Assembly (NCBI GenBank): GCA_023512255.1
Contig: JAILZY010000021.1
Coordinates: 1-47,362, forward strand
Source: a bacterium
GTDB taxonomy: Bacteria; SZUA-182; DTGQ01
Direction of reading: 5' to 3'
DNA length: 47,362 bases
Positions within the stretch are counted from its first letter, which is position 1; each line of letters opens with the position of its first letter. Positions 8,421 through 27,122 of the stretch are shown one piece after another. A program made the position numbers and the translations under genes. The notes beneath the pieces were generated by a model, which ran no database searches, had not been told where the DNA came from, and saw only the letters and a program-made list of their open reading frames with translations.

Positions 8421-8735
8421 TAAACCCTCTCCAACCTTATGTATGAGAAAATCCTCTCTAACCTTTTATAAAATTTTCCCAAACCCTGTACCGGTTCTTG
8501 CCCTTGGTTTGAGCTTCCCCTGAACTAGGGCTTACCTTGCTGGGGGGTAGGCTTACCCTGCCGGTGGGCTGGACTCCCCTTGCCGGGCTGGCTCAGTTGA
8601 TGCCTGGCAAATCGGTCCGGACAGCCAAATTTCTGGCTCACCTTGCTCTGGGAGCTCTTTTCTCTTTACGGGGTAGCCACCTTGCTAGATTAGCTACTTT
8701 TGGGGGCTAGCTCTCTTCTAGGGGTGTCTCCCATT

Positions 8736-8850
8736 TATAAACTTAGCGCCCCTATAGGCTTGGCTCTCCATACTATAAGCTTGGCGCCCAATTTATAAAC
8801 TTAACGCCCCATTTATAGGCTTGGCTCCCGGCTTATACTCTTGGCTCCCC
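8736..8850. repeat. Six degenerate ~20-bp tandem repeats
   Basis: Units begin with TATA at 8736, 8753, 8774, 8794, 8814 and 8834 and follow the consensus TATA-RRCTT-RGC-KCCC. Alternating units are TATAAACTTA-type and TATAGGCTTGG-type, so a pair may be the higher-order unit. They are non-coding and lie roughly 320 bp upstream of nuoA. Confidence 0.8.
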
Positions 8851-9139: not shown

Positions 9140-9295
9140 GGAAATCGCTAAACATTCTGTTTCCCACTCTTGACATCCTTGCCGCAGTCGATCTATTATG
9201 AATAATAAAAGAAATAAATAAAATGATAATATCATTAATAACGTGGTTGAGAATAAGGTAATTGAGGTTAGCCTCGCCTATACATAAGGTTAGTA

Positions 9296-9466: not shown

Positions 9467-12400
9467 ATGTCATCCGCACCAAAGCTGCATAAGCGATCAT
9501 CTGACAGCATAAAGCCGACCAAGGAGACAATCACCGAGGAGGCACTCCAATTATTATCCGCCAGCAAAGAGCTGGCCAAGGGGGCAATTCGATCATCCGG
9601 CAGCGGAGGGCTGCCCAAGATCATATCCAGCAGTCAAAATCAGCCCCAAGCAGGCAGCCAGCCCCAATCTTGTGGCAGCCAAAATCAGTCCTCATTAGCC
9701 AGCAGCCAAAATCAACCAAATCAGCCCCAAGCAGGCAGCCATAATAAACCCCAGGCAGACGGCAGCCAAAATCAGCCCAGCAGCCAAAGTAAAACCAACC
9801 CGGATAGCAACTACAATCAGCCTCAAGGTGGAAGCAGCTCCCCCGGTGACGCTGATATTCACCCTATCCAATCGAGCAATATAGCCGAAATTCTTCGCCA
9901 GCGGGACCACCTTGAGCAGATACTCCGTGAGAGATTTGAAAAAGAGGTGGTTATCCTGTTTGCGGATATCTGCGGCTACACTGGCTTCATTGATCTTTAT
10001 GGCGATCTCAAAGGGCTAGCCCTGATTCAGCGCTACAATCAGATCGTCCTGCCTATCATTGATGAGCAGCGAGGGATGGTGGTCAAAACCATTGGTGATG
10101 CCCTCATGGTTTCCTTCGCCAGCCCACTGGATGCAGTCAAGGCTGCGGTCGAAATACAAAAAAAGCTCGCCGAGTATAACCGTACGGCTGAAGACTCTGA
10201 CCGGATCAGGGTCAAGATCGGGATCAATATCGGCCAGGCTCTGGTGGATGAGACAGACATACATGGCGATGTAGTCAACGTCGCCTCACGCATTCAGGCC
10301 CAGGCCGGGCCAGATCAGATTCTGATCTCAAGCCGGGTCTATGAGCAGGTGCGAGGGGTTGAAGATATCCTCTGCCGGTTTCATGGAACGGTGAGGGTTA
10401 AAGGTAAAAGTGAGCCTCTGGAGCTCTATCGGGTTGTTTGGCGGGATGAGGATATTATCCTTGGCCATGAGCCAAGGGTTAGATCGTCTGCAGCCACAGC
10501 CTCACCCATCCCTCCCCCCCTCAGAGGATGGGGAGATAGGAAAGCGGTCAGGGTTATTCAGCTTGAGGTTACTCGCCAAGACGGCCGGCTTAAGATCAGC
10601 ATTGATGAGCGCCTGGCTGGTGAAGAGACTACGGTCCGCAACTACGAGGAGGTTCCTGTTTCTCTTGACTGGATCAAAACCAGGTGCAATGAGATGGTTG
10701 AGACCCTGAATGAAGTCAACCGCCAAGGCCGGTTCAGCCGTGAGGTCCTGCTCAAGCTGCGGGCCACAGGCCGGGTGTTTTACAATGAGCTTCTTACCCC
10801 CTCGGTCAAAGCCAAGCTGAGGGAGACTAAGGCTGAATACCTAACCCTGAATATCGACGATCAACTGGTTCAGGTTCCTTGGGAGCTGCTCTATGATGGC
10901 CAGGAATTCCTATGTCAGAGGTTCAATATGGGCCGTCTGGTAAAAACCAGGCAGACCGTGCCAGGGATCCGAACCCGGGTTTTGGCCAGACCCTTGCGGA
11001 TGCTGATTATTGCCGACCCATCAGGCGATCTCAAGGATGCCTACCGAGAAGGGGTTCAGATTCAGGAGCAGATGGACGGCAGCTTCGTCAGCGTTACTTT
11101 GCGCTCTCAGGATATTACCCCTGCCTCGATCAAGGAAAAGATGAAATACTTTGACCTAATCCACTTTGCTGGCCACGCTGACTATACCTCCGAGAGCCCG
11201 GATCAGGGTGGCTGGCGGCTGGCCAGTGGACATCTGACTGCTCAGGATGTCATGCAGATGGCCGGATCATCGGCCATGCCTAGCCTCATCTTCTCCAATG
11301 CCTGCCAGTCAGCCCGCACTGAAGGGTGGGTCCTGAAGGAGCACTTTCAGGACGAGATCTTCAGCCTAGCGCATGCCTTCCTGCTAAGCGGGGTAAAGCA
11401 CTATGTAGGCACCTTCTGGGAGATCCTGGATGAGCCAAGCAGCCGCTTTGCCGTAGAGTTTTATAGGAACCTGCTCTCAGGCCTTAGTACGGGTGAGGCT
11501 ATGAGGGAGGCCAGACTGGCACTGATCAGAAGGTATGGTGAAGAGACAGCTGTGTGGGCAAGTTACCTCCTCTATGGAGATCCGACCTTCAATTATCTTG
11601 ATCAAATAAGGGCCTTCGAGGCAGAGGATGAGGCAAAGCAGGCGGCAGGAGGTAGCAGCGGCAGCTCATCCTGGCCGGAGAGAGATCGGATGGAAACCAA
11701 AGAGCCAGGCGGCAGATATCAGCCGGGTAGCGAGCAGCCTCTGCTTGTTGGACATCAGACCGACCAAAGGCTCCTTTGGTGGCAGTGGCTTGCGGTGGCA
11801 GCCGGATCAGGCCTTATAATTGTGGCTCTCAGCTTGCTCATGACCATGCTCTGGCAGCATTCAACCAAAACATCCGCTAATCAGCCTCTGTCTATTTCTC
11901 CTCCGACTGTGCTACTCTCTCAGCCATCTACAGGAGATTCGGCAGATTCTGACTTTAATAGGAGCATTCAGATCATCAACCTGCTGGCCACATATAATAC
12001 TCTGCTCACAAACAGGCTCAAAGAGCAGGGATCCTTCAGCCCAAAGAGGAAATCTGATCCCTGGACCTCAACTCCCTTGTCCGTAGGCATGATTCTGCCC
12101 GACTGGGAGAGAGTCGATCCTGATAGGCTTAAGGCTATGAAGCCTCATTTTGATCTTCTTTTTAAAAGAATCATTGAAACCTTTTCCGAGACAAGCTCCT
12201 CCCCTCTTGGTCTGTCCATTCTGGAAAGAAGCAGGCTGGCCGCCATTCTCCAAGAGCTTCAGATCGGCATAGCTAGACCATCAGAGGAGACGCTTGAAAA
12301 TGCCCGCAGCCTTCTCTCGGCTCGGGTGATCCTCTTTCCCGAGCCCATTTTTTACCCACTAGAGCAGGGACGGACCACTCAGATCAGCCTTCGCCTGGTG

Positions 12401-12760
12401 GAAACAAAGAGCACCAGGATTGTGGCTGCCTTCTCTGCCTCTTTTGCCTTGGAAGAAGAATCTATCAACAGGGCCGCGTTGGATCTAGTCTCTAAGATCG
12501 TAAAAACCCTCAAGGAAGAGTACCCATTGCAGGGCCGAATCTTATCTTGTCGTGATCGAGCGGTGGAGATTAACCTTGGCTCCTCCGTCGGGGTTTTTGA
12601 AGATCAGCTCTTCACTGTCTTGGGCCAGGAGAATGATAGACAGCCGAAGGGGATCATCCGCATAAACTCAATCGCTGAAGATAGCTCGGTGGCAGAAATT
12701 GTAAATCAACAGAGGGAATTTGAGGCCGGAGACCGCATCAGGGCATCTGAAACTGAATAG
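9467..12760 (+). CDS. Class III nucleotide cyclase - CHAT protease - TM - CsgG/FlgT-like fusion protein
   Basis: A 1097-aa signalling protein. Residues 1-140 are Gln/Asn/Ser-rich low complexity with DNA-level repeats (AATCAGCCCCAAGCAGGCAG near 9638 and 9719). About 150-325 is a class III adenylyl/guanylyl cyclase domain: VILFADICGYTGF with a metal Asp near 166, KTIGDALMVSF with the second Asp near 210, and GDVVNVASRIQ. About 360-740 ends in a CHAT (caspase-like) domain with HFAGHAD (His570) and IFSNACQSA (Cys613). About 769-795 is one transmembrane helix (WLAVAAGSGLIIVALSLLM). The remaining 300 residues, presumably periplasmic, resemble CsgG/FlgT (LSILERSRLAAILQELQ; ISCRDRAVEINLGSSVGVF begins one residue earlier). 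Inferred topology is cyclase and protease inside, sensor outside. It is the first gene of a six-gene block. Substrate nucleotide and protease target are unknown. Confidence 0.88.
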   Translation: MSSAPKLHKRSSDSIKPTKETITEEALQLLSASKELAKGAIRSSGSGGLPKIISSSQNQPQAGSQPQSCGSQNQSSLASSQNQPNQPQAGSHNKPQADGSQNQPSSQSKTNPDSNYNQPQGGSSSPGDADIHPIQSSNIAEILRQRDHLEQILRERFEKEVVILFADICGYTGFIDLYGDLKGLALIQRYNQIVLPIIDEQRGMVVKTIGDALMVSFASPLDAVKAAVEIQKKLAEYNRTAEDSDRIRVKIGINIGQALVDETDIHGDVVNVASRIQAQAGPDQILISSRVYEQVRGVEDILCRFHGTVRVKGKSEPLELYRVVWRDEDIILGHEPRVRSSAATASPIPPPLRGWGDRKAVRVIQLEVTRQDGRLKISIDERLAGEETTVRNYEEVPVSLDWIKTRCNEMVETLNEVNRQGRFSREVLLKLRATGRVFYNELLTPSVKAKLRETKAEYLTLNIDDQLVQVPWELLYDGQEFLCQRFNMGRLVKTRQTVPGIRTRVLARPLRMLIIADPSGDLKDAYREGVQIQEQMDGSFVSVTLRSQDITPASIKEKMKYFDLIHFAGHADYTSESPDQGGWRLASGHLTAQDVMQMAGSSAMPSLIFSNACQSARTEGWVLKEHFQDEIFSLAHAFLLSGVKHYVGTFWEILDEPSSRFAVEFYRNLLSGLSTGEAMREARLALIRRYGEETAVWASYLLYGDPTFNYLDQIRAFEAEDEAKQAAGGSSGSSSWPERDRMETKEPGGRYQPGSEQPLLVGHQTDQRLLWWQWLAVAAGSGLIIVALSLLMTMLWQHSTKTSANQPLSISPPTVLLSQPSTGDSADSDFNRSIQIINLLATYNTLLTNRLKEQGSFSPKRKSDPWTSTPLSVGMILPDWERVDPDRLKAMKPHFDLLFKRIIETFSETSSSPLGLSILERSRLAAILQELQIGIARPSEETLENARSLLSARVILFPEPIFYPLEQGRTTQISLRLVETKSTRIVAAFSASFALEEESINRAALDLVSKIVKTLKEEYPLQGRILSCRDRAVEINLGSSVGVFEDQLFTVLGQENDRQPKGIIRINSIAEDSSVAEIVNQQREFEAGDRIRASETE

Positions 12761-12786: not shown

Positions 12787-15585
12787 ATGGGTACTGATCA
12801 CGCCAAGTTTTCATTCCGCTGCTCCTTCCGGCCCCTGCTGCCGCTCCGCTGCTTATTCCGGCCACTAGGGCCGCTATGTCTGCCTCTCTTCTTCTTCCTC
12901 GGCCTGCTTCTTCTCTCCTCCTGCTCAGAGGTGCGGCCAAAAGTCTGCCTCCAAAGAGGCCGTCAGTATTGCCTGACCTCAGACAAAATCCAGGTGATCA
13001 CCTGGGATGCCTGCTATCGTCGGGCAATAAGTTGTATGGAAGGCCAGTGTTGGGAATACGCTATCGAGGAGCTGAGGCAAGCCATTGAACTTCGATTTGA
13101 GGATCAAAGGCAGGTCAGGGCTTATGGTATGCACTTTCGAGAGGAATATTTTCCGCACCGGGAGCTTGGCATCTGCTATTTTCATCTGGGTAGGATCGAG
13201 GATGCTTTGCAGGAACTTGAGTTATCCCTGAGCCAGACCCCATCGGCCAGGGCTAAATATTATCTTAACCAAGGCCGAAGAGCCTACCTTCTGGAGCATC
13301 ACCTGGACCAATCCTCCCCAGCCGTTCGCCTCTACCTTGAATCTTCAGAAGATTTGGGTAAAACTGAGCCAGCAGAATATTTAACCAATAAAACTCCGGT
13401 GGTGATTCGAGGCAGAGTTTGGGATGATCAGTACGTGGCCTCTATCTTGGTCAATCAAAACCCTGTGTTTATAGAGCTGGCTGAAGCCTCGGTTCCCTTT
13501 TCCATGCCGGTTGATCTGACCGAAGGCGAAAATGTAGTCCAGGTTGTGGCCAGGGATTTAGTTGATCGGGAGGCTGAGGAGCGCATCAGAATTTTTCTGG
13601 ACAGACAAGGGCCTCTGGTTATCAGCCATGCGATTTGCTCAAGCCAATCGGACTGGCGGCCAAGCTGGCCAAAGCAGGCCGTGGATCGAGAAGGGGCCTG
13701 GCCGAAGCAGACGGATCAGAACAGCACAGATAAGACTTCCCAGCCCCAGGCTGCGGATAAAGCTCCCCATCCCCAGGCTGACAGGAAAGCTTTGGGGCGG
13801 CGGATCATCCTCACAGCTTTGGTCTATGACCCATCGGGGATAGCTTGCTTTAAGTTAGGACAGAAGGAAGTCGATAGAGTTGGCCTTGACCAGCTCTGTC
13901 TGGTTGAGCAAGAGCTGTCACTTGTTCCTGGGGTAGAGTCTGTGCCGTTCGAGGCCAGAGATCGGGCAGGAAATATTACCCAAGGCAAGATTTGTCTACT
14001 CCTCCCTAGTGAACAGGGCAAGGTGAATGGTTCAAGGCGCAAGGCGCATCACCTTGAGCAGGCTCCCCCTCCGCATCTGGCTTGGAGGCTAGAGCAGCGG
14101 CTTAAGAGTGGGCGAAATATCAAGGCTCACCCCGTGCGGCTGGCTTGGAGCGGCACAAGCACGAGCAGTCTTGAAGGGGCTGGTATTCTCGGTGGGCTGC
14201 TCCAGCATCTTTCCTCTGCCTCTGCTGCTCAATCAGAAGGAGGGAATGGAGGAGAGGATAAGGGTCGAGACCTGGTGGTCGGTGGAGATAAAGGGCAAGG
14301 TCAGGCTGGTCAAAATAAGGATCAAGATAAGGCTGCTAGAAATGCTGGTAGAGATAGGGATAAAAATAATGCTGGTATAAATAAAGATAAGAGGCAAGGT
14401 CGGGCTGGTGATGCTGGTAATGATGAAGATCAGGCTGGTGATGCCGGTAATGAAAGCGGCATCATTTTTGATATCCTCCAGCCTGCTCAAGAGAATTTTA
14501 CCACTTATTATTCGGAAATCTTCCTTGAAGGCAGGATCAGGGCCCAGCAGGGAATTCGCCGGATCGAGCTAAACGGGCGAGTGCTCTTTGAGCCCTCAGA
14601 GCTTCAGGCGATGATGGAAAGGAAGATGGCAGAGCTAAAGCAAAGGCTACTTGAGCAAAGGAAAGATCCAGCCTACTATGTTCAGCTTCTCCAAAAGGCT
14701 CTTTGGAGCGCTAACTTCTATTATCTCAATCAAAGAATCCCGCTGGTGAATAAGGTTACTGATCTTGATCTTGTGGTTGAGGATAGCAGAGGCATCCGCA
14801 GAGTGCGGCACTATCGAATCGAGAAAATTCCCAGAGAGGAGGTTATCCGAAGCGAGCAGCGGATGGTTTTGGCTCTTTTGCCTTTTGAAACTGCCCAAGT
14901 GGATGAGATTGTGGCCACCGCGACCGCGGCAGAAGACAAGCCTAGCCAGACATTGGTCAAGGAATCTGACAATCTGATCAAAAGCTACATCAACGACCGA
15001 TCCCAGCAAGCCTTTATCAGCCAGGGCAGATTCAATCTGGTTGAGCGGGGAAAGCTTCCCTGGGTGCTGATCGAAAAAACTATCCAGGCAGTGGGAGATA
15101 CGGCAGGCCAGACGGATCAGAGCAGTGCGGCCCAAAAGATCGGCCGAATGGTGGCCGCCGAAGGGGTTATCTGCGGCTATATTCAGAGGCGAGGTGATGG
15201 TACCGAGATTATGGCACGATTCATCGAGGTTAAAACTGGCCTCATCCGCCTCTACCACGATGTCTTCACCCCTACAGAGAGCAGAGAGAGTCTGGATATA
15301 ATCACTGCCGGCCTAGCCATGAAATTTCGCGACTCTTTCCCCATCTGCTCAGGATCGATCATCTCGCGGCAGGGAAATAGTATTCAGGTTGATTTCGGCT
15401 CGGAAAAAGGGATTTTCCCAGGGATGATGTATAACATCTTCGAACATGAGCAGGAGCTGATAGCCACAGCCAGTATTACGGAGACAAGAGCAGGGGAATC
15501 AGAAGCCGAGATCAACGCCTCTTCGGCCACCGCGGCGAGAAGTATCAGCAGAATAAGGCCGGGATTGCGGGTCAGGACCCGCTAG
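12787..15585 (+). CDS. TPR lipoprotein with CsgG/FlgT-like C-terminal domain
   Basis: A 932-aa predicted lipoprotein. A hydrophobic stretch ends in the lipobox LLLSSC (Cys46). About 75-165 looks like TPR repeats (YAIEELRQAIELRF, HLGRIEDALQELELSLSQ). Two Ig-like modules follow (VVIRGRVWDDQYVASILVN; the second at about 560 with EIFLEGRIRAQQGIRRIELN). Residues 484-557 are a Gly/Asp/Asn/Lys low-complexity linker with A/T-ending codons unlike the rest. About 690-925 is a CsgG/FlgT-like region: RMVLALLPFE, FNLVERGKLPWVLIEKTIQ, then SIISRQGNSIQVDFGSEKG. This last region is shared with the genes on both sides. It starts 26 nt after the cyclase-CHAT gene. Probable envelope partner of that protein; function unknown. 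Confidence 0.82.
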   Translation: MGTDHAKFSFRCSFRPLLPLRCLFRPLGPLCLPLFFFLGLLLLSSCSEVRPKVCLQRGRQYCLTSDKIQVITWDACYRRAISCMEGQCWEYAIEELRQAIELRFEDQRQVRAYGMHFREEYFPHRELGICYFHLGRIEDALQELELSLSQTPSARAKYYLNQGRRAYLLEHHLDQSSPAVRLYLESSEDLGKTEPAEYLTNKTPVVIRGRVWDDQYVASILVNQNPVFIELAEASVPFSMPVDLTEGENVVQVVARDLVDREAEERIRIFLDRQGPLVISHAICSSQSDWRPSWPKQAVDREGAWPKQTDQNSTDKTSQPQAADKAPHPQADRKALGRRIILTALVYDPSGIACFKLGQKEVDRVGLDQLCLVEQELSLVPGVESVPFEARDRAGNITQGKICLLLPSEQGKVNGSRRKAHHLEQAPPPHLAWRLEQRLKSGRNIKAHPVRLAWSGTSTSSLEGAGILGGLLQHLSSASAAQSEGGNGGEDKGRDLVVGGDKGQGQAGQNKDQDKAARNAGRDRDKNNAGINKDKRQGRAGDAGNDEDQAGDAGNESGIIFDILQPAQENFTTYYSEIFLEGRIRAQQGIRRIELNGRVLFEPSELQAMMERKMAELKQRLLEQRKDPAYYVQLLQKALWSANFYYLNQRIPLVNKVTDLDLVVEDSRGIRRVRHYRIEKIPREEVIRSEQRMVLALLPFETAQVDEIVATATAAEDKPSQTLVKESDNLIKSYINDRSQQAFISQGRFNLVERGKLPWVLIEKTIQAVGDTAGQTDQSSAAQKIGRMVAAEGVICGYIQRRGDGTEIMARFIEVKTGLIRLYHDVFTPTESRESLDIITAGLAMKFRDSFPICSGSIISRQGNSIQVDFGSEKGIFPGMMYNIFEHEQELIATASITETRAGESEAEINASSATAARSISRIRPGLRVRTR

Positions 15586-15808
15586 AGGGGAGAAGGAAAT
15601 AAAGGTGAGAACAGGGTATGAGGGAAAAAAGGGGTAGGAAAATTACGGAGACAAGAGCAGGGGAATCAGAAGCCGAGATCAACGCCTCTTCGGCCACCGC
15701 GGCGAGAAGTATCGGCAGAATAAGGCCGGGGTTGCGGGTCAGGACCCGCTAGAGGAGGGAATAAGGTGAGAACAGGGTATGAGAAAGAAAATGGGGTAGG
15801 GAAAATGG
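15475..15808. repeat. ~167-bp tandem duplication of a gene 3' end
   Basis: The last ~110 bp of the 12787-15585 gene, its TAG stop and ~55 bp beyond are repeated from 15642 onward. The coding part is nearly identical (two A/G differences seen); the part after the stop has small indels. The second copy has no start and is an untranslated relic in the intergenic gap. Confidence 0.92.
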
Positions 15809-15969: not shown

Positions 15970-17649
15970 ATGGCAGAGAAAGAATGGAGGAGAGAAAAGA
16001 TTCTAAAAAAAGAAGCTAGCTTCATTATCAGGCAGCTTTCCTCGCTTGTCCTTCTTTATTTGAGTCTTTGCTGTCTTGGTTTGGCTGGATCCTTGAATTT
16101 TAGCTTGGATTCCCAAACTCAGCCTCTTCTGCCCTACCCTGCCCTATCACTTTCTGCCGCCAGGGCTGCCTCTCCTATACTTTTGCCCAATCCTCGCAGT
16201 CCTCGCCAGGCAGCCTTATCAGGAGAGCAGCATCTTTCATCACCTCCCAAGGAACCCAATGCAGGGCCGCTCTTGCCTCACCAGGCGACAGAAAAAGCCT
16301 CATCTCGCCATCTTCGCCAGGGCATCCACCAGCCGACTGCGCGCTCTTCCACCCCATCTTCCAAAAGTGGTGATGAGATCACCATTACCATTACCTACCC
16401 TCCTTTAGCCAATAGGCTGACCACACCCTACCGTCAGATTTTCGTAGAAGGAAAAATCTGCGCTCCTCATGGCCTTAGGCGAATTGAGTTTAATGGCCAG
16501 GAGCTTTTCAATAAAGCCGCGCTCGATGAGCTCATCCGGCAAAACTGGTCAAAGATCGAAAGCAAAGGTGAACGCAAGACTATCGAAAGCAAAGATGAAC
16601 GCAAAACTCGTGAGCGCAAAGAGGGCCCCAAGACCTCTGGGGTGAGCTCACTTAAGCCACCACCAAACCTTCAGCAGAGCATAAAGAGCTGCCTAGAGCG
16701 CTACAGTCTGTATTACCTGCACCAGCTCTGCTCCCTGACCGAGGGGGAAAACAGCCTAAAGCTTTTGGTAGAAGATAATGCTGGTCAGGTAGCTAGCCGC
16801 ATACTCAAAGTGCACTCAGCCCCAGCCGAACTCACTCTCAAACCACAACCACAAGCAGCCTGGCCAGAAGCCAAGCTCAGCCTTCGTCAGACTGCTCGTC
16901 ATCAGGCCGCTGCTTGGCCCAAGGACATCCCTTTGAGCCAGGAGCGGATGATCCTGGCCCTTCTTCCACCACTAAAAAAAGCGGCCACGGACGTAGGCAG
17001 CGACAGCAGTAGCATACGCCTGGCTGATTATATCTACCATCGGCTCGGTGAGGCCATCAGTCGCCAGGCACGGTTTCGCCTAGTCGAGCGGGCCAAGCTC
17101 CCCTGGCTATTAATCGAAAAGGCTATCCAAAGCGGCAATCTTTCCTGGCAACAGATCTGCCGCCAGATCAGCCACTTGACCCCAGCCGATGTGATAATGT
17201 TCATTGAGGTGCAAAGAAGCAAAGACAGCTTTGGCCAAGAGGGGCTTGACATCCAAGGCCGTCTGGTGAATCTTGAGAGCACTACCTTGGCTATTCATCG
17301 GGTGTTTGTCCCGACTGTTGAGCCGCAGAGCGATCAGGATTTTGAAGAGCTCAACACCGCTGTCTTTGGCCTGGCTATGAAATTTCGCGACTGCCTCCCC
17401 TTGCTCACCGGCACAATACTATCAAGGAGCGGATCAGTTATCAAGGTAGATCTTGGTTCAGAAAAAGGGGTATTATGCGGTATGTGTTATAATATATATA
17501 ATAATAGCGATGGAAAAGCTAACAGACAGCGACGGCCTCTCTGCCGGGCAATAGTAAAAGAGGTAGCCAAGAGAATATCCACAGCCAGGATTATTGAATC
17601 AGAGCTTAGTAGTAAAATCAGGCCAGGCTGCATAGTAATGACTAGATAA
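15970..17649 (+). CDS. Exported CsgG/FlgT-like protein, paralogue of the upstream lipoprotein
   Basis: A 559-aa protein with an N-terminal hydrophobic export signal (LVLLYLSLCCLGLAGS) and a Pro/Ser/Gln-rich linker. An Ig-like module (YRQIFVEGKICAPHGLRRIE) matches the second one of the upstream lipoprotein. The region 323-555 is CsgG/FlgT-like: RMILALLPPL, FRLVERAKLPWLLIEKAIQ, GTILSRSGSVIKVDLGSEKG. In between, a 27-bp in-frame tandem duplication (16555-16581 and 16582-16608) gives IESKGERKT then IESKDERKT. Side-by-side similarity shows a duplication of the C-terminal half of the preceding gene. Probably an envelope component of the same system; function unknown. Confidence 0.82.
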   Translation: MAEKEWRREKILKKEASFIIRQLSSLVLLYLSLCCLGLAGSLNFSLDSQTQPLLPYPALSLSAARAASPILLPNPRSPRQAALSGEQHLSSPPKEPNAGPLLPHQATEKASSRHLRQGIHQPTARSSTPSSKSGDEITITITYPPLANRLTTPYRQIFVEGKICAPHGLRRIEFNGQELFNKAALDELIRQNWSKIESKGERKTIESKDERKTRERKEGPKTSGVSSLKPPPNLQQSIKSCLERYSLYYLHQLCSLTEGENSLKLLVEDNAGQVASRILKVHSAPAELTLKPQPQAAWPEAKLSLRQTARHQAAAWPKDIPLSQERMILALLPPLKKAATDVGSDSSSIRLADYIYHRLGEAISRQARFRLVERAKLPWLLIEKAIQSGNLSWQQICRQISHLTPADVIMFIEVQRSKDSFGQEGLDIQGRLVNLESTTLAIHRVFVPTVEPQSDQDFEELNTAVFGLAMKFRDCLPLLTGTILSRSGSVIKVDLGSEKGVLCGMCYNIYNNSDGKANRQRRPLCRAIVKEVAKRISTARIIESELSSKIRPGCIVMTR

Positions 17650-17680: not shown

Positions 17681-20600
17681 ATGAGTATGAGCAGGAAGCT
17701 GGGAAATAGCCTTAGAGAGAAAAACAGAAGCAGGCTCTCACCCTTTTTTACGAAAACAGCCTCTCTCCTCTTGCCTCCCCCACTTGCCTTTATCTTCCTT
17801 CTTCCCCTCATGATTAGCCTCTCCATCAGCCTATCCTCTTCTTGCGGCTACTGCTCCCAGGGGAGGAGGGTAAACCTTGGGCTAACCGGAAGGTTCGGCT
17901 ACAGCGGAGCGATTAGGTGCCTGGAAATATACCATTCTCCGGGCTGTAGCCAACTCAAGGTGGTCGGCCAACCCAGCGGGGCAGTCTGCCAGACTGAGGC
18001 AGTCTGCCAGACCTTTGCCTACTGCGGAACTCAGGAAGGGCTCCTAATCATTGACCTTACCGATTCGGCCTCTCCCCGCCCGGTATCCTTCTTCGAGCTT
18101 GGATCAGCTCAAGCGATCAGGTTCTATCAGCCTGCCGGCCAGGTAGGCGAGTTTGCCCTTATCCTCAAGACTACAGGGGAGCTGATTATTTTGTCGATTG
18201 ATGATCCTGAGCACCCTGTCTATGCAGGCTGCTTTCGCCCAAGCGAAACTCTCCTCAGCGATACTCCCCGTGGACTTTGCCTCTTTGACCACTATCTTTG
18301 CCTGGCCAGCGGGTCAAGCGGCCTGCTTATCCTAGACCTCAGTGATCCAACCAAGCCAGCCTACGCGGGCAGATATCACAGCGCGGGGCAGGTCGAGGAT
18401 GTGGCCATATTTGGCCGCTATGCCTGTGTGGCTGATGGCCCCCGCGGCCTGGCCATAATCGACCTTTCAGATCCCTCAAAGCCCCGCTACGCTGGCGGAC
18501 ACCCAATTGACCTTAAAGAAATTGATCCCCAGGCTGAGTATAAGAAAAATGCATCTTTTGTAGCAATTTACGGCCACTACGCTTGCCTGGGGCTTCAGTC
18601 GCATGGGGTTGCGATTTTAGACCTTGCTGAGCCGGCTAACCCTTCCCTGGTCAGTTTGCTCAAGACGCAAGGCGAGGTCAAGGGGATAGCCGTCGCCGAC
18701 CACTACGCTTACCTGGCTGACGATGCGGAGGGGCTAGTCATTGTTGATCTTGAGCATCCAGAAAAACCGGCTAAGGTCTTCAATGAGCCTCCATCCAGCC
18801 AGAGCAGCCAGCCAAAAGAAACATCCCAGACAGCGGCAGGAGCCTGGGCAAAAGGGGCCTGGGATGTGGCCGTATCTGGCCACCTGGCCTGCATTGTCCG
18901 CCCCTGGGGTGAAGAGCTTACCATTTTCACCCTCCAGAATCTTACTGTCCCAAGTGAAGCAAGCAGTTATTATACCAAAGGATACGCCAAGGCAGTGGCT
19001 GTGTGCGGGCATCATGCCCTTTTGGCCGATGGATGTGGTCTTTCAATCGTCAAGGTCGATGATCCGGCCAAGCCGACCCTAACCGGACGCTGTCCTACAG
19101 CAGGATCAGCCAGCAACCTGGCCGTAGTCGAGCCTTATGCTTATGTGGCTGATGCCGAAGGGGGGCTAGTGGTTATTGATATTGCCGACCCTAAAAATCC
19201 CCGCCAGGTCGGCGGCTATCAGGCCGAGGGGATGACTGCCTTGGATGTAGCCATATATTCCCACTATGCTTATGTGGCTGCCGACAGTCAAGGGCTTTTG
19301 ATTTTCGATCTGTCAGATCCTGCCCACCCTCGCCTGACCGGAGGCTGTGATACAGAAGGAAATGCCTGTGGCCTGGCCATAAGTGGCCCCTTGGCCTATG
19401 TGGCTGACTGGACAGGGCTAGCCATCATTGATATTCATGATCCTAGCCATCCCAGCCCGATCGGCAGGTATTATCAGCCTGGGATGATAGCCAAAGATGT
19501 AGCCTTAAGTGGCCACTACGCCCTGGTGGCTGGTGGAGCAAGCGGCCTGCTGCTCATCATTGACATAAGCGATCCAAAAAATCCTTATCTTGTAGCCAGC
19601 CAGTCTCTGGATGACGGCCAGTCTCAGGCTACGGCTACTGCAAGCTACCAGCAGCCGAATCAAGAGGGTGGCGCATCAAGATTTCAAGACAGGAGCGCCT
19701 TAAGGTTTTATGTTCAGCAGGTAGCTGTATCCGGCCGCTATGCCTATCTTGCTGCCGGCGAACAGGGCCTGGTGGTGGTTGATATGGCTGATCCGCAAAG
19801 GCCACTCCTGTGCGGCCAGGAGGCTACTATGGCTTTGGCCTCAGGGGTAGCTATTGACGCTGCTTCTGGCTATGCCCACGTGGCTGAGGCCGAGGGAGGG
19901 CTTTCCATCTACCGGATCATCGACTCTCCACCACCACAAGGTAACCTTATCATTCTGCCGACTGGTCCGGCCTTGGCCTCAAATTCGCTCTGGCCACCCT
20001 GCCAGGCTCTGGCTAATCTTGCCTACTCTACCTTCCTCGATCAAAATTTCAACCACTATGATCTCTTCTATCTGAGCCCTGATCCATATCAGGACATTGA
20101 CCATGACGGCTTTCCCAACCCGCTGGTGGTCCGCAAGGCTGCTCCTTCGGCCTCTGCCCTCGAGCAGGCATTCTCAGATTGGGCAATAACCCGCCTAAAC
20201 ACTGGGCCTCTCTACCTCTATCTTCCAGGCCAGGGAAGCGGCCAGGTGTATCAGATTCTGCCTGGTGAAACCGTAAAAAGCAATGATCCTGAAGCTCTCC
20301 TGAGGCAGGAGGATAATTCTGGCAGTCTAAAAGCCTGGCTTGATAACTTTCAGCAACAGACTGGCCGTGAGGTTATCTGCCTGATGGAATTTTCATCCTC
20401 AGGCTCTTTTGCGGCCAGGCTAATGGACGCAAATACGGCCTCCTTTAGCCGAACCATCATCACCTGTACAGACTCTGGCCCTTCATTTCTTGATCCTGAG
20501 GGCAGGTTTTCTTTTACCGGCATATTTCTCACCTTTCTTGGCGACCAAGATCCCTTATCGGGCGAGCCTAGCGAGCTTTTCTCAGGCTCAGGGCCAGAAG

Positions 20601-23600
20601 CTCAAGCTCGGAGAAGATCGCGTCTTGAGGCCATCTTTTCCCAGGCCAGGGAAGCATTTTGGACCCTAGGGCCTCCTTGGAGCAGCCAGCCCCCGCAGAT
20701 GATTACCTGCCACGGCGGGGGGAGCAAAACCCTGCTTAGCATCAGCCTGTCGGTGGAAGATGAGGATTCTGGCCAAAAGCCTGGCCAGAGCAGCCCGGCA
20801 TCAGTCTGGCTAGAGCCTGCGGCCACCATCACCAGCCCCAACCAAAAGCTTTTCCTAAAGGCCACTGGCCACTACCTTGACGGCAGCAGCCAGGATCTTT
20901 CCGATCGTGTCTATTACCGAAGTTCTGACCCATCGCTCCTTAGAGTTACCCGCTCAGGGGTAGTCTATCCTGATCCCAATACTGGCTACAGCGGCCTAGC
21001 CTATATCCTAGCCACCATTATTGACCCTGATTTTGCCCACGCTGATCATGGGCGATCTTTCGATCCTATCACCTCGGGCGATCTCCCACCCTTAGGGGGA
21101 ATCACCGGCCGCATCCCGATCAGGATAGCCATACCCGACCGGAAAGAAAGGGATGGCCAAGCAGTAGCCAGAGCCATTATCGTGGCCGGAAGGGCAAATG
21201 ATCCGGCAGGGTATGACTATCTAGCCGAGAGTATCACCCAAGTGGCTAACTACGCCTATGACACTTTCAGGGCGCGGGGCTACAGCCCTCAGAGCATCTG
21301 CTATCTGAACCATGACCAAAGCCAGCCCGGAGCGGTGCAGCTTGAAGCCGGGCAAACCTTCACTCAGGTTCTAAACCGCATATTTACCGAGCCGGCAGAC
21401 AATCCCTTCCTCGATCTTGATGGCCTGACCGATCTGACCATCCTGCTCATAGATCATGGCCGGAAAAACACCTTTTTTCTCGGCCCGACCAGCGATCAGG
21501 TCATTTCTCCACCTATCCTGGATCAGTGGCTGGACAGTCTCCAGAAACGATACCCCTCGGCCAGAGTTACCGTAATCATTGATGCCTGCTACGCTGGGGA
21601 TTTTGTCGATCCGCTGATCGAGGGGGCTGAAAAGAGAACCGCTATTGCCTCAACCGATAAGGCCGAGGCTTTCCTGGCCGCAGACGGTCTGGTCTGCCTG
21701 ACTGCTTTTCTCATGCCTCATCTTCGAGCTGGAGTCAACTTGCACGATGCTTTTGAGCAGGCCAGGTGTGAGCTGGCCTCGGTCGGCTGGGGAGCTCTCC
21801 AGCAGCCTGTCCTCAAAAGTAGTCAGGACAGCCCATTCTCCAGCTGCCTGACCTACCTTGGCCGTCCCTTTGTTATCAACCAGGACCAGCCCCAGATCCT
21901 TCAGGCTTCATGGCTTTCTGACCCCAACCAGCCGCTTCTTCCCCGAAAGCCGATCACCCTTTGGGCCAAAGTGGCAGACCTTGACGGCATAGACAGTGTC
22001 TTTGCCCTGATTAGCAATTCCCAAGCCGCTGTCCAATTTTCAGCCTCACCGCAAGATTCTCTAATGACGGCAGATCTGGCCAGGGTAGACCTTGTCTATA
22101 ACCCTGCCCTTGATCGGTATGAGGGAGTGTATGAAGGCTTTCCATCGAGCGGCCCGTACACCGTTCTGTTTATGGCCAAAGACTCTAGGGAAGCGCTTTC
22201 TTACCCCAAGGCTATCTATCCCAAGGTTTGGGGAGAAAGCCAGGACTTGTGCCTGCTGGTCTATGAGGCTGATTGCCTCCCTTGTGCCCAGCAGGTCAAT
22301 TTTGCCCAATGGGTGCTGGAAAAAAGAGGAGTACCCAAGCAGAATATCGTCAAAGTGTGTGGGACGGAAGCTCTTCTCTCTCACCTGGCTTCCTTGGCAC
22401 GAGACTATTTTGAACCGCCAAGCAGCCTCATCAATCATCTTCTTATATTTCTCACTCCTGGGGAAAGTAATATGCTCGAGCGCTACGGGGAAGCCCTTAG
22501 CCAAAGGTTGGATCAAATCCAAAAGATTCAAGGGTGCACCATCATCAGTCTGATTGAGGCCAGCGACGCAGACAAATTCTTGCCCCTTCTAAAAGGGCGG
22601 GAAAGAATCACCATCGCCCTCAATCATCATCTCTCTTCTGGCAGTGCGGCTCCATCATTTTGGCACTTTTTCTTCTCCGGCATCTATCGCGGTCTTGATC
22701 TCTACCGAGCCTGGCAGGCGGCTCGCCTAGCTGTTAGCTATTTTCCAGACCAGGCCCTGTGGCCGCTTCTTGATGATAACGGCAATGGCCAGGCCTTGGA
22801 GTATGGCCAAAACTACGATGGCCGCTTGGCCAGTAGAACATATCTTGGCTCTCCATTTGAGCCTGTGGCGCTTGCGGCTCCGCAAATCATCCTCCCTTCT
22901 TCCTCTTCTGTGTATCTTGAGGCAGGAGAAGGCGCCCCAATTCAGGTCAGGGTGCAGGAGACTACGGCCAGGGTATTTGCTCTGATCAGTGCGCCTGACG
23001 GATCAATCGACTCAACGGATCTTGTTTATGATCCCGAAAGCGGCTGGTTTAAAGCAGTCTACACCGGATTTACTCAGGTAGGGATCTACCGAGTGTTTAT
23101 TAATGCCCAAGACCGCAGTGGGCTCACTGACCTGGGAGAAATCTGCTATATTGTCCTTATGCCGGATAAATTTGAGAATGACAACCGCTCTGATCAGGCC
23201 AAAACCTTGCTGGTCAATCAGCCGCCCCAAGAGCATAGCTTCCACTCCCCTGCCGACGAGGATTGGAGCTCTTTCTGGGGCTATGCCGGCCTTCCCTATG
23301 AGGTCAGGGTCAATAGGATGTGGCTAGATGGCGGCCTCAAGATCGACATCCAAGCACCGGATGGCTCCCAAATTAACCCCTCTTGCGATCCAAATGATTT
23401 GTCCTATGATACCAAAAGCTTTATTGCTCCTCAAAACGGCCTTTATCTGGTCAGGATTGCCTGCCAGGGTCTGCCAGCTGTGGATTATCCCGCATATCAG
23501 CTTTCAGTGATTTGCCCTGTGGCTGGAACAGGAGGGGTCTTTGGTTGGGTCAGAGATGCTAACACTGGAGAAGGGATTGTCGGAGCCACGATTTGCACCC

Positions 23601-24511
23601 CTGCCGGACAGTGCACAAGCAGCCTGGATGAGTGGTGGTCACAGGATCCTGCGGCAAGCATCAGGCATGTGGAGGCAGGCTTCTACTTCATGGATGCCCT
23701 GCCGAAGCAAGCCGCAGGTATGAGCATAACTGCCCAGGCTATTGGCTATCTGCCGCAAAGCAAGGTTATCTTTGGCTATGATGAGAATATCCTAAACCTT
23801 ACTTTTTATCTTCAGCCTGATCCTAAAATTTCTTATCAGAAGCCTGCCCAAGATCCGGTGGCGGTCCAAAGAATGGCCGGGATCATGGAGCAGAAAAGCT
23901 CTTGCCTAAGGGTCAAGGTGCCGCTCTCTGAAGGCTTTAACCTATTCTCTCATCCGAATGCTGATCCCCGCTCGCCTTACGATATCTTAGATTTTCTGCT
24001 GACCTTCGGCCAGATTAACCACACCAGTGGCCCCTGTTTTTCAAGCATAAGATATCTGACTGACAGCAGCTCATCAGGCAGCCGGGAGACCAAGGCTTGC
24101 TTTTTCCTCCCGCCCACCCCTGAGGGGGCGCCTCGCTGGTCTATCAATTGCTCGGATCACTTTCCAATGGCTTCAGGTAAAGGCTATGCCGTTTACCTGC
24201 GGCGGCCCCTGTCTTTTGATTTTCCGCTTTCCCTGCCGAATCCTCCGATTGACCTCAGGAGGGGAGAAAACTGGGTAGGGATTCCAAGCCCTCCTGCTGG
24301 CTACAGCTCATATCTAATGCTTCAGGATATCGGCAGCGCCAGTGAGGTATCCAGCATCTGCGGCTTTGATCCTGAAAGCGGCAGGTGGAAGATAACCTAT
24401 TGGCATCATGGCCAGCCATCTGGGGATAACTTTCCCATCCGGTCCGGGCTGGGTTATCTGGTTTACATAATCGGGGATAAACCAAAGTGGCTGCCGGGGA
24501 AGGAGGATTGA
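17681..24511 (+). CDS. Giant exported LVIVD beta-propeller protein with three caspase-like units
   Basis: A 2276-aa protein with an N-terminal hydrophobic signal and a possible lipobox (LSSSC, Cys55). About 80-760 holds some 13 LVIVD-type repeats (LLILDLSDPTKPAYAG, LVVIDIADPKNPRQVG), enough for two seven-bladed propellers. Three caspase-fold-like units follow. Unit 1 (about 755-1030) is degenerate, with MEFSSSGSF where the Cys loop should be. Unit 2 (about 1165-1400) has an intact dyad, ILLIDHGRKN (His1259) and VIIDACYAGDF (Cys1303). Unit 3 (about 1517-1730) is degenerate (IISLIEASDADKF). A BIG2-like segment sits between units 1 and 2. Next come an Ig-like module, a PPC-like domain (about 1830), a carboxypeptidase-regulatory-like domain (VFGWVRDANTGEGIVGATIC) and a C-terminal domain. 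14 bp are repeated at 17981-18016 (EAVCQT). Probably a surface protease or receptor; target unknown. Confidence 0.85.
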   Translation: MSMSRKLGNSLREKNRSRLSPFFTKTASLLLPPPLAFIFLLPLMISLSISLSSSCGYCSQGRRVNLGLTGRFGYSGAIRCLEIYHSPGCSQLKVVGQPSGAVCQTEAVCQTFAYCGTQEGLLIIDLTDSASPRPVSFFELGSAQAIRFYQPAGQVGEFALILKTTGELIILSIDDPEHPVYAGCFRPSETLLSDTPRGLCLFDHYLCLASGSSGLLILDLSDPTKPAYAGRYHSAGQVEDVAIFGRYACVADGPRGLAIIDLSDPSKPRYAGGHPIDLKEIDPQAEYKKNASFVAIYGHYACLGLQSHGVAILDLAEPANPSLVSLLKTQGEVKGIAVADHYAYLADDAEGLVIVDLEHPEKPAKVFNEPPSSQSSQPKETSQTAAGAWAKGAWDVAVSGHLACIVRPWGEELTIFTLQNLTVPSEASSYYTKGYAKAVAVCGHHALLADGCGLSIVKVDDPAKPTLTGRCPTAGSASNLAVVEPYAYVADAEGGLVVIDIADPKNPRQVGGYQAEGMTALDVAIYSHYAYVAADSQGLLIFDLSDPAHPRLTGGCDTEGNACGLAISGPLAYVADWTGLAIIDIHDPSHPSPIGRYYQPGMIAKDVALSGHYALVAGGASGLLLIIDISDPKNPYLVASQSLDDGQSQATATASYQQPNQEGGASRFQDRSALRFYVQQVAVSGRYAYLAAGEQGLVVVDMADPQRPLLCGQEATMALASGVAIDAASGYAHVAEAEGGLSIYRIIDSPPPQGNLIILPTGPALASNSLWPPCQALANLAYSTFLDQNFNHYDLFYLSPDPYQDIDHDGFPNPLVVRKAAPSASALEQAFSDWAITRLNTGPLYLYLPGQGSGQVYQILPGETVKSNDPEALLRQEDNSGSLKAWLDNFQQQTGREVICLMEFSSSGSFAARLMDANTASFSRTIITCTDSGPSFLDPEGRFSFTGIFLTFLGDQDPLSGEPSELFSGSGPEAQARRRSRLEAIFSQAREAFWTLGPPWSSQPPQMITCHGGGSKTLLSISLSVEDEDSGQKPGQSSPASVWLEPAATITSPNQKLFLKATGHYLDGSSQDLSDRVYYRSSDPSLLRVTRSGVVYPDPNTGYSGLAYILATIIDPDFAHADHGRSFDPITSGDLPPLGGITGRIPIRIAIPDRKERDGQAVARAIIVAGRANDPAGYDYLAESITQVANYAYDTFRARGYSPQSICYLNHDQSQPGAVQLEAGQTFTQVLNRIFTEPADNPFLDLDGLTDLTILLIDHGRKNTFFLGPTSDQVISPPILDQWLDSLQKRYPSARVTVIIDACYAGDFVDPLIEGAEKRTAIASTDKAEAFLAADGLVCLTAFLMPHLRAGVNLHDAFEQARCELASVGWGALQQPVLKSSQDSPFSSCLTYLGRPFVINQDQPQILQASWLSDPNQPLLPRKPITLWAKVADLDGIDSVFALISNSQAAVQFSASPQDSLMTADLARVDLVYNPALDRYEGVYEGFPSSGPYTVLFMAKDSREALSYPKAIYPKVWGESQDLCLLVYEADCLPCAQQVNFAQWVLEKRGVPKQNIVKVCGTEALLSHLASLARDYFEPPSSLINHLLIFLTPGESNMLERYGEALSQRLDQIQKIQGCTIISLIEASDADKFLPLLKGRERITIALNHHLSSGSAAPSFWHFFFSGIYRGLDLYRAWQAARLAVSYFPDQALWPLLDDNGNGQALEYGQNYDGRLASRTYLGSPFEPVALAAPQIILPSSSSVYLEAGEGAPIQVRVQETTARVFALISAPDGSIDSTDLVYDPESGWFKAVYTGFTQVGIYRVFINAQDRSGLTDLGEICYIVLMPDKFENDNRSDQAKTLLVNQPPQEHSFHSPADEDWSSFWGYAGLPYEVRVNRMWLDGGLKIDIQAPDGSQINPSCDPNDLSYDTKSFIAPQNGLYLVRIACQGLPAVDYPAYQLSVICPVAGTGGVFGWVRDANTGEGIVGATICTPAGQCTSSLDEWWSQDPAASIRHVEAGFYFMDALPKQAAGMSITAQAIGYLPQSKVIFGYDENILNLTFYLQPDPKISYQKPAQDPVAVQRMAGIMEQKSSCLRVKVPLSEGFNLFSHPNADPRSPYDILDFLLTFGQINHTSGPCFSSIRYLTDSSSSGSRETKACFFLPPTPEGAPRWSINCSDHFPMASGKGYAVYLRRPLSFDFPLSLPNPPIDLRRGENWVGIPSPPAGYSSYLMLQDIGSASEVSSICGFDPESGRWKITYWHHGQPSGDNFPIRSGLGYLVYIIGDKPKWLPGKED

Positions 24512-24518
24512 AAAAGTT

Positions 24519-25706
24519 ATGAGCTGCTGGTTGTTGAGCCAAAAAGGCTATGTTCGGCAGACCTTGGGGCTGATTATGGCCGAAGGTGTAATTTTGGCCC
24601 TTTTGGCTCTTCTGGCGTCTTGTTTTGCTGCCGAAGGCCTGGCTTTGCCCATCTGGCCGCTGGGCACGGGCCCAAATGGCCAGCCGGTGTCTGAGGACAG
24701 GATCGGCTATGAGGATGGAAGCAGTCAGGAATTTGGGGACTATACGCTAGATCCCAATGCTTTAGTCATCACCTGGCGGGTGGGAGTAGACTCCTGGGCT
24801 AGCTTTCCTCGGCGGCTAAACACTAAGCGCAATAGCCCGCATACGGTCCACATCCTGTTTGATACAGCCAGCATTGATACCTCCGCGGCCTGGGAAGCCT
24901 CGAGCAAGAGTGCCTGGAGCCTGACCCTATCCGCTAGATCAGACGCGCCTCAGAGCCAGCGACTTGGCGTCTGGTTTGATGGCCAGCCTACCCACCCTCC
25001 GGCAGGCGAAGAGATTCGGCCCGGAGCAAGCTTTCAGCCGCATACCTTCTGGCTGGGATATATAACCCCTGGCCAGCACAGAATTACCCTTAGCAATCAG
25101 ACGGATCCAAATACGCAGAATGAGGTCAATTACGGAATTTTTTTTGATTATCTAAAACTTGTGCCTGGAGCAAAGGTCGGCCTTTTCCTAGCTCCCGAAA
25201 CTCAAGCTAATATAGTCTTGGCCGATTTTACCCCCTTGGCTCAGACCGATCCAACCATAGCCGGCTCAAGGCCGCCAAGGGCAAATTTTTATGCTGGCTA
25301 TTGGAAATTCAAGCTCTCCGGCCTTGAGCCTGGCGGGTGGGTAAAGATCGAGATCCACTGCCCAAGGGAGCCTTTTTTCCCCTTACATAGCTACTACAGC
25401 TACAGCAGCGGGCCTGGCCAGGGTAGTGAGGGTAGTGGATGGAGGCCGCTTGAACTCAGCCTGGATCAGAGCAGGGCTACAGCTACGGTCAAGCTCTCAG
25501 ACGGAGGCGAGGGAGACAGCGATGCTACCCCTGATGGAGTGATTTCTCACCTTGGCGGTCTGGCCGCCCCCCTTACCCTGGGGGAGAGCTATGACTATCA
25601 GGGCTGTTTCATCACCAGCTTGATGAGGCTGTGGCAAGATGAGGCGGCATTTGCTGGTTACGGTTTGGGAGAACATAATTTATGGTTTTTAAGGGAAAGA
25701 CAATAA
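24519..25706 (+). CDS. Exported protein with choice-of-anchor-U-like C-terminus
   Basis: A 395-aa protein beginning with a hydrophobic segment (AEGVILALLALLASCFAAEG) that should direct export. The middle is beta-rich (ITWRVGVDSWASFPRRL) without a family I recognise. The C-terminal half contains ATVKLSDGGEGDSDATPDGV, followed by ISHLGGLAAP, which resembles the choice-of-anchor U pattern TLTDGGPGDADGVANGVI. It lies 7 nt after the 2276-aa gene and abuts the barrel gene, so it is very likely co-transcribed. Perhaps an accessory or anchoring subunit of the giant protein; this is inference. Confidence 0.72.
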   Translation: MSCWLLSQKGYVRQTLGLIMAEGVILALLALLASCFAAEGLALPIWPLGTGPNGQPVSEDRIGYEDGSSQEFGDYTLDPNALVITWRVGVDSWASFPRRLNTKRNSPHTVHILFDTASIDTSAAWEASSKSAWSLTLSARSDAPQSQRLGVWFDGQPTHPPAGEEIRPGASFQPHTFWLGYITPGQHRITLSNQTDPNTQNEVNYGIFFDYLKLVPGAKVGLFLAPETQANIVLADFTPLAQTDPTIAGSRPPRANFYAGYWKFKLSGLEPGGWVKIEIHCPREPFFPLHSYYSYSSGPGQGSEGSGWRPLELSLDQSRATATVKLSDGGEGDSDATPDGVISHLGGLAAPLTLGESYDYQGCFITSLMRLWQDEAAFAGYGLGEHNLWFLRERQ

Positions 25707-27122
25707 ATGATACTGTCTGATACTTTAAGCTACACGCCTTCTATCCACCCCCTTAGACCTAAACTCATGCTCTGCTCACTGCTGGTCTGCCTGCTATTTT
25801 TGATACTTCTTCTCCTTGATAATAAGGCTCATAGAGCCTATGCCGCAGAGTCTATGCCTGAGGTAAAATTCTCCTCATCACTCAATCCGGTTGGCTCAGG
25901 GGCCAGAGCCTTGGGTATGGGTGGTGCCTTCATTGCCTTTGCCGATGATGCCACTGCCGCCTCCTGGAATCCGGCTGGGCTGAAAAATCTTCTCAGGCCG
26001 GAGATGAGCATAGTGGGACAATATGATGAGCGGGCAGAAAGCTTTTCCTTCGACCAATCCCCACAGGCTGCCAACCAGTACCTGATGAGTGGGGAGTGTC
26101 TGAATTATCTCAGCCTAACCTACCCTTTCAGGTGGCAGGGGGAAAACTTTGTCTTTTCCCTAAATTACCAAAACCTCTACAGTCTGAGGCGCACCATGCG
26201 CTATCGGTGGCAGTTTGAGGATCAGAACGCCCTGATCAGCATGACCTATGAAGCCCGCTTTCGGCAAGAGGGGAATCTTAAAGCCGCCTCAGCAGCCTTG
26301 GCCACCTTTTTGACCCGGGCGGTTTCAGTCGGCCTGACCCTAAACTTTTGGTCAGACAAGCTGGCTGATAATGGCTGGATAGAGGATTACCGCAAAATCG
26401 GCTGGGGAGTTGAGGGCGGAAGGGATTGTCAAAGCTTTACTGAGAGATTGGATCGTTACTCTTTTTCAGGATTCAATATGAACCTTGGCTTATTGTGGGA
26501 TATAAACCGATTTTTTACCCTTGGAGCAGTGGTCAAAACACCATTTACTGCCCGACTAAGGCACGAGGGAAAGGCCTTAAGCCACAAAATCCATCCTGCT
26601 TCCCCAGAACAAGACAATCCTGTCTACGAGCCGCCCAAGGTCGATCACCAGAAGCTTAGCCTGCCCTTATCTTATGGGCTTGGCCTGGCCTTCAGACCAT
26701 CGGATCGCCTCATATTTGACCTTGACCTTGCTAGAGCCGAGTGGAACGGCTATGTGCTCCAAGATGCCGAGGGACGAAAAATTGATCCCATCACCTGTCT
26801 ACCCAAAGAGCAAAGCTCGATCAAGCCTACCCATCAGGTCAGACTTGGTGGCGAACATGTCTTTTGGTTAAAAAAGCTGACCCTTGCTTCCCGAGCTGGA
26901 CTATTCTACGATCCAGAGCCAGCACGGAGGAATCCTGATGACTTTTTCGGCTTTAGCCTCGGCCTTGGCATAAGCTTTGGTCGCCTGGTCCCACTCTCCT
27001 TTGATCTTGCCTATCAGGGGCGCTTTGGCCACAATGTGGAAGGAGACAGCATCAGGGGAGAAAATTCACCTGCTAGGGTAAGACAACATCTTTTGTATCA
27101 TTCAGTGATATATTATTTTTAG
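25707..27122 (+). CDS. PorV/FadL-like outer-membrane beta-barrel protein
   Basis: A 471-aa protein with a long N-terminal hydrophobic signal (LLVCLLFLILLLLDNKAHRA, then YAAES). The mature start, LNPVGSGARALGMGGAFIAF followed by ADDATAASWNPAGL, is the classic N-terminus of PorV/UPF0164 and FadL-type barrels. The rest alternates polar and hydrophobic residues and ends in an aromatic strand (HSVIYYF), typical of outer-membrane barrels. Its start directly follows the stop of the previous gene. In type IX systems PorV docks secreted surface proteins; a similar docking role for the exported proteins here is a hypothesis, as no other T9SS genes are in the window. Confidence 0.85.
   Translation: MILSDTLSYTPSIHPLRPKLMLCSLLVCLLFLILLLLDNKAHRAYAAESMPEVKFSSSLNPVGSGARALGMGGAFIAFADDATAASWNPAGLKNLLRPEMSIVGQYDERAESFSFDQSPQAANQYLMSGECLNYLSLTYPFRWQGENFVFSLNYQNLYSLRRTMRYRWQFEDQNALISMTYEARFRQEGNLKAASAALATFLTRAVSVGLTLNFWSDKLADNGWIEDYRKIGWGVEGGRDCQSFTERLDRYSFSGFNMNLGLLWDINRFFTLGAVVKTPFTARLRHEGKALSHKIHPASPEQDNPVYEPPKVDHQKLSLPLSYGLGLAFRPSDRLIFDLDLARAEWNGYVLQDAEGRKIDPITCLPKEQSSIKPTHQVRLGGEHVFWLKKLTLASRAGLFYDPEPARRNPDDFFGFSLGLGISFGRLVPLSFDLAYQGRFGHNVEGDSIRGENSPARVRQHLLYHSVIYYF

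Follow-up and report, generated by a model that had tools for sequence, protein, structure and literature searches.

The window, i.e., the whole stretch of 47,362 nucleotides that was analyzed, carries an open reading frame (9467–12760, forward strand, as are the promoter, domains and genes of the window located below) that starts with ATG and encodes a protein of 1,097 amino acids. The initial annotation had read this gene as a fusion of a nucleotide cyclase, a CHAT protease, a transmembrane helix and a CsgG/FlgT-like domain in one chain, and this architecture was upheld by alignment, profile and fold evidence. The domain search that had been proposed as a check was run with Pfam and placed a class III nucleotidyl cyclase domain (Guanylate_cyc, PF00211; E 1.6e-18) at residues 159–316 (9941–10414) and a CHAT protease domain (PF12770; E 8.2e-41) at residues 433–705 (10763–11581), both far above the cut-off. 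A hydropathy scan detected a single transmembrane helix after the CHAT domain, as had been claimed, at residues 777–795 (11795–11851; hydropathy 2.24), and the helix was found in every full ortholog. The remainder of the protein from about residue 836 to residue 1097 (11972–12757) is a predicted periplasmic tail. Alignment of the orthologs also revealed a conserved charged helix, EILRxRDxLEQxLRExF, N-terminal to the cyclase (9875–9940); it resembles a signalling helix and may have a coiled-coil role.

The first 130 or so residues (9467–9856) form a head rich in Ser, Gln, Asn and Pro that has no counterpart in the five orthologs, whose starts align at about residue 131 of the window protein. 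Thus, the Gln/Asn-rich head that had been noted is present, while the assembly or cleavage function suggested for it is unsupported because the head is private to the window genome. Within it, five near-copies of one 12-mer (CAAAATCAGCCC-like) lie at 9635–9778, and Tandem Repeats Finder called no tandem repeat in the head.

Residue conservation was evaluated in six full-length proteins, from the window genome (G000) and genomes G001, G002, G048, G060 and G197, and no loss of catalytic residues was seen in the alignment. The metal-binding aspartates of the cyclase, which had been reported as intact near positions 166 and 210, are indeed intact and invariant in all six proteins, but lie one position further on, at D167 and D211. 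The transition-state residues N271 and R275 are likewise invariant in 6/6, as is the substrate pair K207/D264, which was aligned to Ma1120, the nearest solved cyclase relative (3.8e-21). In class III enzymes, a Lys/Asp substrate pair predicts an adenylate cyclase, and by these residues the domain would be of the adenylate type, with cAMP as the product. The CHAT dyad H570/C613 was found at exactly the positions given in the initial annotation; it is invariant in the six full-length proteins and in 19/19 members of the CHAT family, in which the motif PWE473 (19/19) and D655 (18/19) are also conserved.

Because a PDB sequence search with the tail gave chance matches only, a fold search was needed. 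Using the AlphaFold model of the tail (pLDDT 78.6), Foldseek against the PDB returned FlgT first (8z5n, E 1.0e-9; 3w1e, E 2.1e-9), followed by TolB, PelBC and CsgG (E 4e-4), with TM-scores of only about 0.3, which means kinship of modules rather than a rigid two-domain superposition or the same protein. The window tail itself falls under the Pfam cut-off (CsgG, E 0.06, 13 bits against a cut-off of 20.8), and tails of homologs pass it, for CsgG in the ortholog at L036 (4.5e-7) and for FlgT_C in the paralog at L025 (3.8e-6). The tail is thus related to CsgG/FlgT, as had been proposed, rather than an unrelated domain. In the G002 ortholog (L035:9121–12030), the sequence INLGxSVGVSRDQSFLV occurs twice in the FlgT_C-like part, a short in-frame internal duplication. 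FlgT and CsgG are structural ring proteins, and the FlgT/CsgG-like module recurs in the neighbouring lipoprotein genes, which suggests co-assembly; the tail could therefore merely anchor the protein to an envelope ring or lipoprotein, with activation coming from the cytoplasmic side. We regard this as improbable, since a single-helix link between the periplasmic domain and the catalytic domains has been kept while the linker varies (TPR repeats are inserted in the linker of the fusion proteins at L036 and L064 in the ortholog alignment), and this is the usual layout of a sensor.

The gene appears to have its own promoter, TTGACA-N18-TATTAT (9170–9199), which lies some 270 nt before the start codon and has 11/12 consensus matches; the G001 ortholog is preceded by the same hexamers at the same spacing. 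The genes further upstream are a divergent nuo operon in the window and response-regulator genes in G001. The gap upstream of the fusion also contains, at 8730–8850, five copies of the 23-nt sequence CCCATTTATAAACTTAGCGCCCC and its variants, mostly 20 nt apart. Downstream, the genes have conserved counterparts in G001 and G002. The fusion gene is followed by a gene (12787–15585) for a predicted lipoprotein (lipobox LSSC) with TPR, glucodextranase-B-like and FlgT/CsgG-like C-terminal parts, by a 559-aa protein (15970–17649) that by phmmer has its C-terminal module in common with the preceding lipoprotein, and by a 2276-aa protein with ten LVIVD repeats (17681–24511), conserved after the locus in G001 and G002. 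Next come a 395-aa protein with no Pfam match (24519–25706), which starts 8 nt past the preceding gene, and an OMPP1/FadL-like outer-membrane barrel (25707–27122; PF03349, 4.5e-6, under the cut-off here and above it in a paralog operon). The LVIVD protein, which weakly matches an anammox S-layer family, is probably a giant surface protein. At 15646–15760, one frame encodes the C-terminal residues of the lipoprotein just before it a second time (AGESEAEINASSATAARSISRIRPGLRVRT), which looks like a duplication of the gene end.

These neighbours bear on the reading of the fusion as a defence or cell-death effector, in which infection would trigger the cyclase messenger and CHAT would digest cell proteins, as in bacterial caspase or Pycsar-type systems. 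PADLOC gave weak matches to Pycsar cyclases (5e-10) and, for the CHAT domain of homologs, to BovA (about 1e-6), and conflict systems that pair cyclases with caspases have been described (PMC7159879, PMC8195603). However, the cyclase match to PycC reflects homology shared by class III enzymes in general. The genes around the fusion belong to nuo, to the envelope or to housekeeping, no Pycsar effector is adjacent among the window genes scanned, the tail and its partners are envelope proteins, and a family of genomes retains the locus; we therefore give this reading little credence.

Among the nine genomes covered for the window's phylum, three, all of one family, had the full architecture, and three further ones had cyclase-less relatives only at the search threshold used. 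In a 386-genome sample, relatives were found in G048, G060 and G061 (one small phylum), in G197 (another), and in G056, where the contig ends inside the fusion gene and the cyclase ORF is truncated; G386, of the same phylum as G197, carries an incomplete copy where its contig ends. The architecture is thus rare but spread more widely than the window's phylum: besides the three genomes there, it occurs in at least two further small phyla. A protein-pattern scan of genome contigs gave two distant cyclase matches only, and the combination of a CHAT domain with an adenylate cyclase and CsgG was not found in the open-licence literature. In a tree of the CHAT domain, a single clade of cyclase fusions was not rejected (p-AU 0.097) and the backbone was weak, and the tree does not separate one from several origins of the fusion.

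At ten loci encoding CHAT-TM-tail proteins (L025, L026, L027, L032, L033, L036, L037, L038, L063 and L064), a gene for an ECF sigma factor (about 200 codons) and a gene for a zf-HC2 anti-sigma factor (about 240 codons) lie directly upstream on the same strand. Three of the ten (L036, L063 and L064) bear the cyclase and are the orthologs in G048, G060 and G197, and in G056 such a pair lies ahead of the truncated cyclase ORF as well. In L064 and L031, the coding regions of the anti-sigma factor and the CHAT protein share 4 nt. Searches with the sigma factor find RpoE and SigW. In the operons of the window's phylum, the CHAT gene is followed in most cases by a gene for a TPR/glucodextranase-B-like/FlgT/CsgG-like lipoprotein, homologous to the one at 12787–15585, and in many by a homolog of the FadL-like barrel. 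One conserved operon of this kind, on contig 62 of the window genome (L025:6149–13376), consists of genes for the ECF sigma factor, the zinc anti-sigma factor, a CHAT-TM-FlgT/CsgG protein, a TPR/CsgG-like lipoprotein and a FadL-like barrel; with its equivalents at L026, L027, L037 and L038, it forms a candidate transcription-switch module that merits attention aside from the cyclase fusion. Pairs of the same sigma/anti-sigma family without a CHAT neighbour in the stretch read were seen at L099:3898–5343 and L101:8331–9963, and the next gene at L101 encodes a 2359-aa LVIVD-like protein related to the one at 17681–24511 in the window. Overall, the membrane-bound fusion of cyclase and protease is a probable stress switch.

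The conserved neighbourhood of these relatives thus offers a concrete candidate substrate. A profile of the anti-sigma factors searched against the PDB finds the zinc anti-sigma factors DdvA, RsiW, RsrA and ChrR, as well as 8rot_B, a 991-aa "CHAT domain-containing protein" whose zinc module lies at residues 7–47. Residues H55, C59 and C62 are conserved, and zf-HC2 scored above the cut-off at L036 and L033, which are loci of relatives and not of the window. A hydropathy scan of the anti-sigma factors found no transmembrane segment, so they are expected in the cytoplasm, where the cyclase and CHAT domains must also lie. In an alignment of 17 anti-sigma sequences with about 20% identity, the invariant columns, apart from the initiator Met and the two zinc Cys residues, are R131, F207 and Y214. 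R131 occurs in the context [A/V/T/F/M/I/S]-R-[G/S/R/K] and falls within residues 124–140, the longest segment with pLDDT below 50 in the AlphaFold model; Foldseek of this model found nothing significant. An invariant Arg in a loop that is predicted to be disordered looks like a protease site, although other roles are possible. The anti-sigma factors at L099 and L101, which have no CHAT neighbour, keep this Arg; the link between the Arg and CHAT is therefore not exclusive, and the residue could have a different role or be a target of cleavage in trans.

The conserved acids of the CHAT domain were compared with those of separase, for which a Glu beside a Trp (W916-E917 in Caenorhabditis elegans) and Asp1082 are modeled as the acids that hold the P1-Arg (PMC4626109). 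E473 and D655 match these two acids by motif and position, not by superposition, and would be compatible with cleavage after Arg. Csx29, which is the CHAT protease studied best, has a Ser at the position of D655 in the alignment, indicating that S1 chemistry varies.

Taken together, these data suggest a mechanism in which the FlgT/CsgG-like periplasmic tail would sense the state of the envelope, probably with the lipoprotein and the FadL-like barrel encoded downstream, and the signal would cross the membrane via the one transmembrane helix. On the cytoplasmic side, the CHAT cysteine protease would cleave the zinc anti-sigma factor, a soluble protein, directly after the invariant Arg of the loop and thereby release the ECF sigma factor. 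The class III domain would make cAMP, either as a second output alongside proteolysis or as a means of controlling the assembly state of the protease; two cNMP-binding proteins are encoded in the window genome. We give an even chance to the general proposal of a protease that senses the envelope and liberates an ECF sigma factor through cleavage of the corresponding anti-sigma factor, with cAMP synthesis as an addition. The narrower version, in which a single-chain envelope sensor turns one signal into both cAMP and Arg-specific CHAT cleavage of the zinc anti-sigma factor, freeing the ECF sigma factor, is a tentative one. Such a sensor would be a counterpart to the DegS/RseP-type cascade that works in one step, with its protease and its second messenger firmly coupled. 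The link that the initial annotation drew from envelope sensing to second-messenger synthesis and proteolysis is plausible.

How the window copy fits this mechanism is a separate matter, as there are no sigma or anti-sigma genes beside the window fusion or the G001 ortholog. The window genome encodes a single anti-sigma factor of this family, and its gene (L025:6833–7540) adjoins that of the second CHAT protein of the genome (C62), a CHAT-TM-FlgT/CsgG paralog without a cyclase whose CHAT region is 48% identical. Aligning the regions upstream of the sigma operons, so as to obtain an ECF promoter motif to look for at the window gene, gave nothing usable. Action of the window copy on this single anti-sigma factor encoded elsewhere in the genome is possible but doubtful. 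In the window lineage, the cyclase fusion could instead have left the sigma circuit to become an envelope sensor of its own, making cAMP and cutting another cytoplasmic substrate, with the paralog alone serving the sigma factor. The missing pair at both loci and the position of the sole anti-sigma gene are in line with such a departure, as are two traits of the fusion locus, a conserved sigma70-like promoter of its own and a conserved set of downstream genes, among them that for the LVIVD giant. Against it, the cyclase-bearing orthologs in three other genomes keep the sigma and anti-sigma genes directly upstream, and the CHAT specificity residues are the same in the fusion and the paralogs. 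We hold this departure to be less likely than not, and a separate substrate for the sigma-unlinked window copy to be a serious rival to cleavage of the anti-sigma factor.

CHAT proteases are common, and few have a known substrate or trigger. The operon family described here brings together a sensor and a protease with a candidate substrate, for which cleavage at a single residue is predicted, and with a transcriptional readout. If the proposal of anti-sigma cleavage is true, an anti-sigma factor would be cut by a membrane-spanning protease without regulated intramembrane proteolysis, and the cyclase fusion would couple the sigma switch to cAMP. Among known CHAT proteins, HetF is membrane-associated and cyanobacterial, and the window protein shows a weak NCBIfam match to it; HetF is not known to have a cyclase, a FlgT/CsgG tail or a sigma/anti-sigma operon. 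The PDB entry 8rot joins a zinc anti-sigma module and the CHAT name in its one chain, and thus the association of the two occurs elsewhere too; there, however, the anti-sigma module is fused to CHAT rather than encoded by a separate gene, and no cyclase or FlgT/CsgG tail appears in the PDB listing.

Caspase-superfamily and cNMP cyclase modules are joined or swapped in the EACC1/EACC2 caspase systems and in a cyclase-FGS-TRADD-N-caspase protein of Gemmata, and some of these have transmembrane helices and linked ECF sigma genes (PMC7159879, PMC8195603). The proteins described here differ in having a CHAT domain with a FlgT/CsgG-like tail and envelope lipoprotein and barrel partners, and the domain searches run reported no EACC, FGS or TRADD-N domain. 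As a genomic precedent, CHAT protease genes also occur in the genetic context of ECF54 sigma factors, for which proteolytic control has been proposed (PMC8999054); the control of ECF54 is described as involving no anti-sigma factor, whereas a zf-HC2 anti-sigma factor is constant here. An experimental precedent is the type III-E Craspase, which likewise combines a CHAT protease, an ECF sigma factor and its inhibitor, and in which Csx29 cuts the sigma inhibitor Csx30, releasing CASP-sigma and thereby transcription (PMC10028731). No CRISPR effector (Cas7-11) was found among the window genes scanned, and the Csx29 NCBIfam model scored 12 bits against 300. Unlike Csx29, which lacks an acid equivalent to D655 in the alignment, the CHAT family here has that acid, and the protease is membrane-tethered, bears a periplasmic tail and is fused to a cyclase, with a zinc anti-sigma factor as the inhibitor and a predicted cut after Arg; if the proposal is true, the logic of Csx29 and Csx30 extends outside CRISPR.
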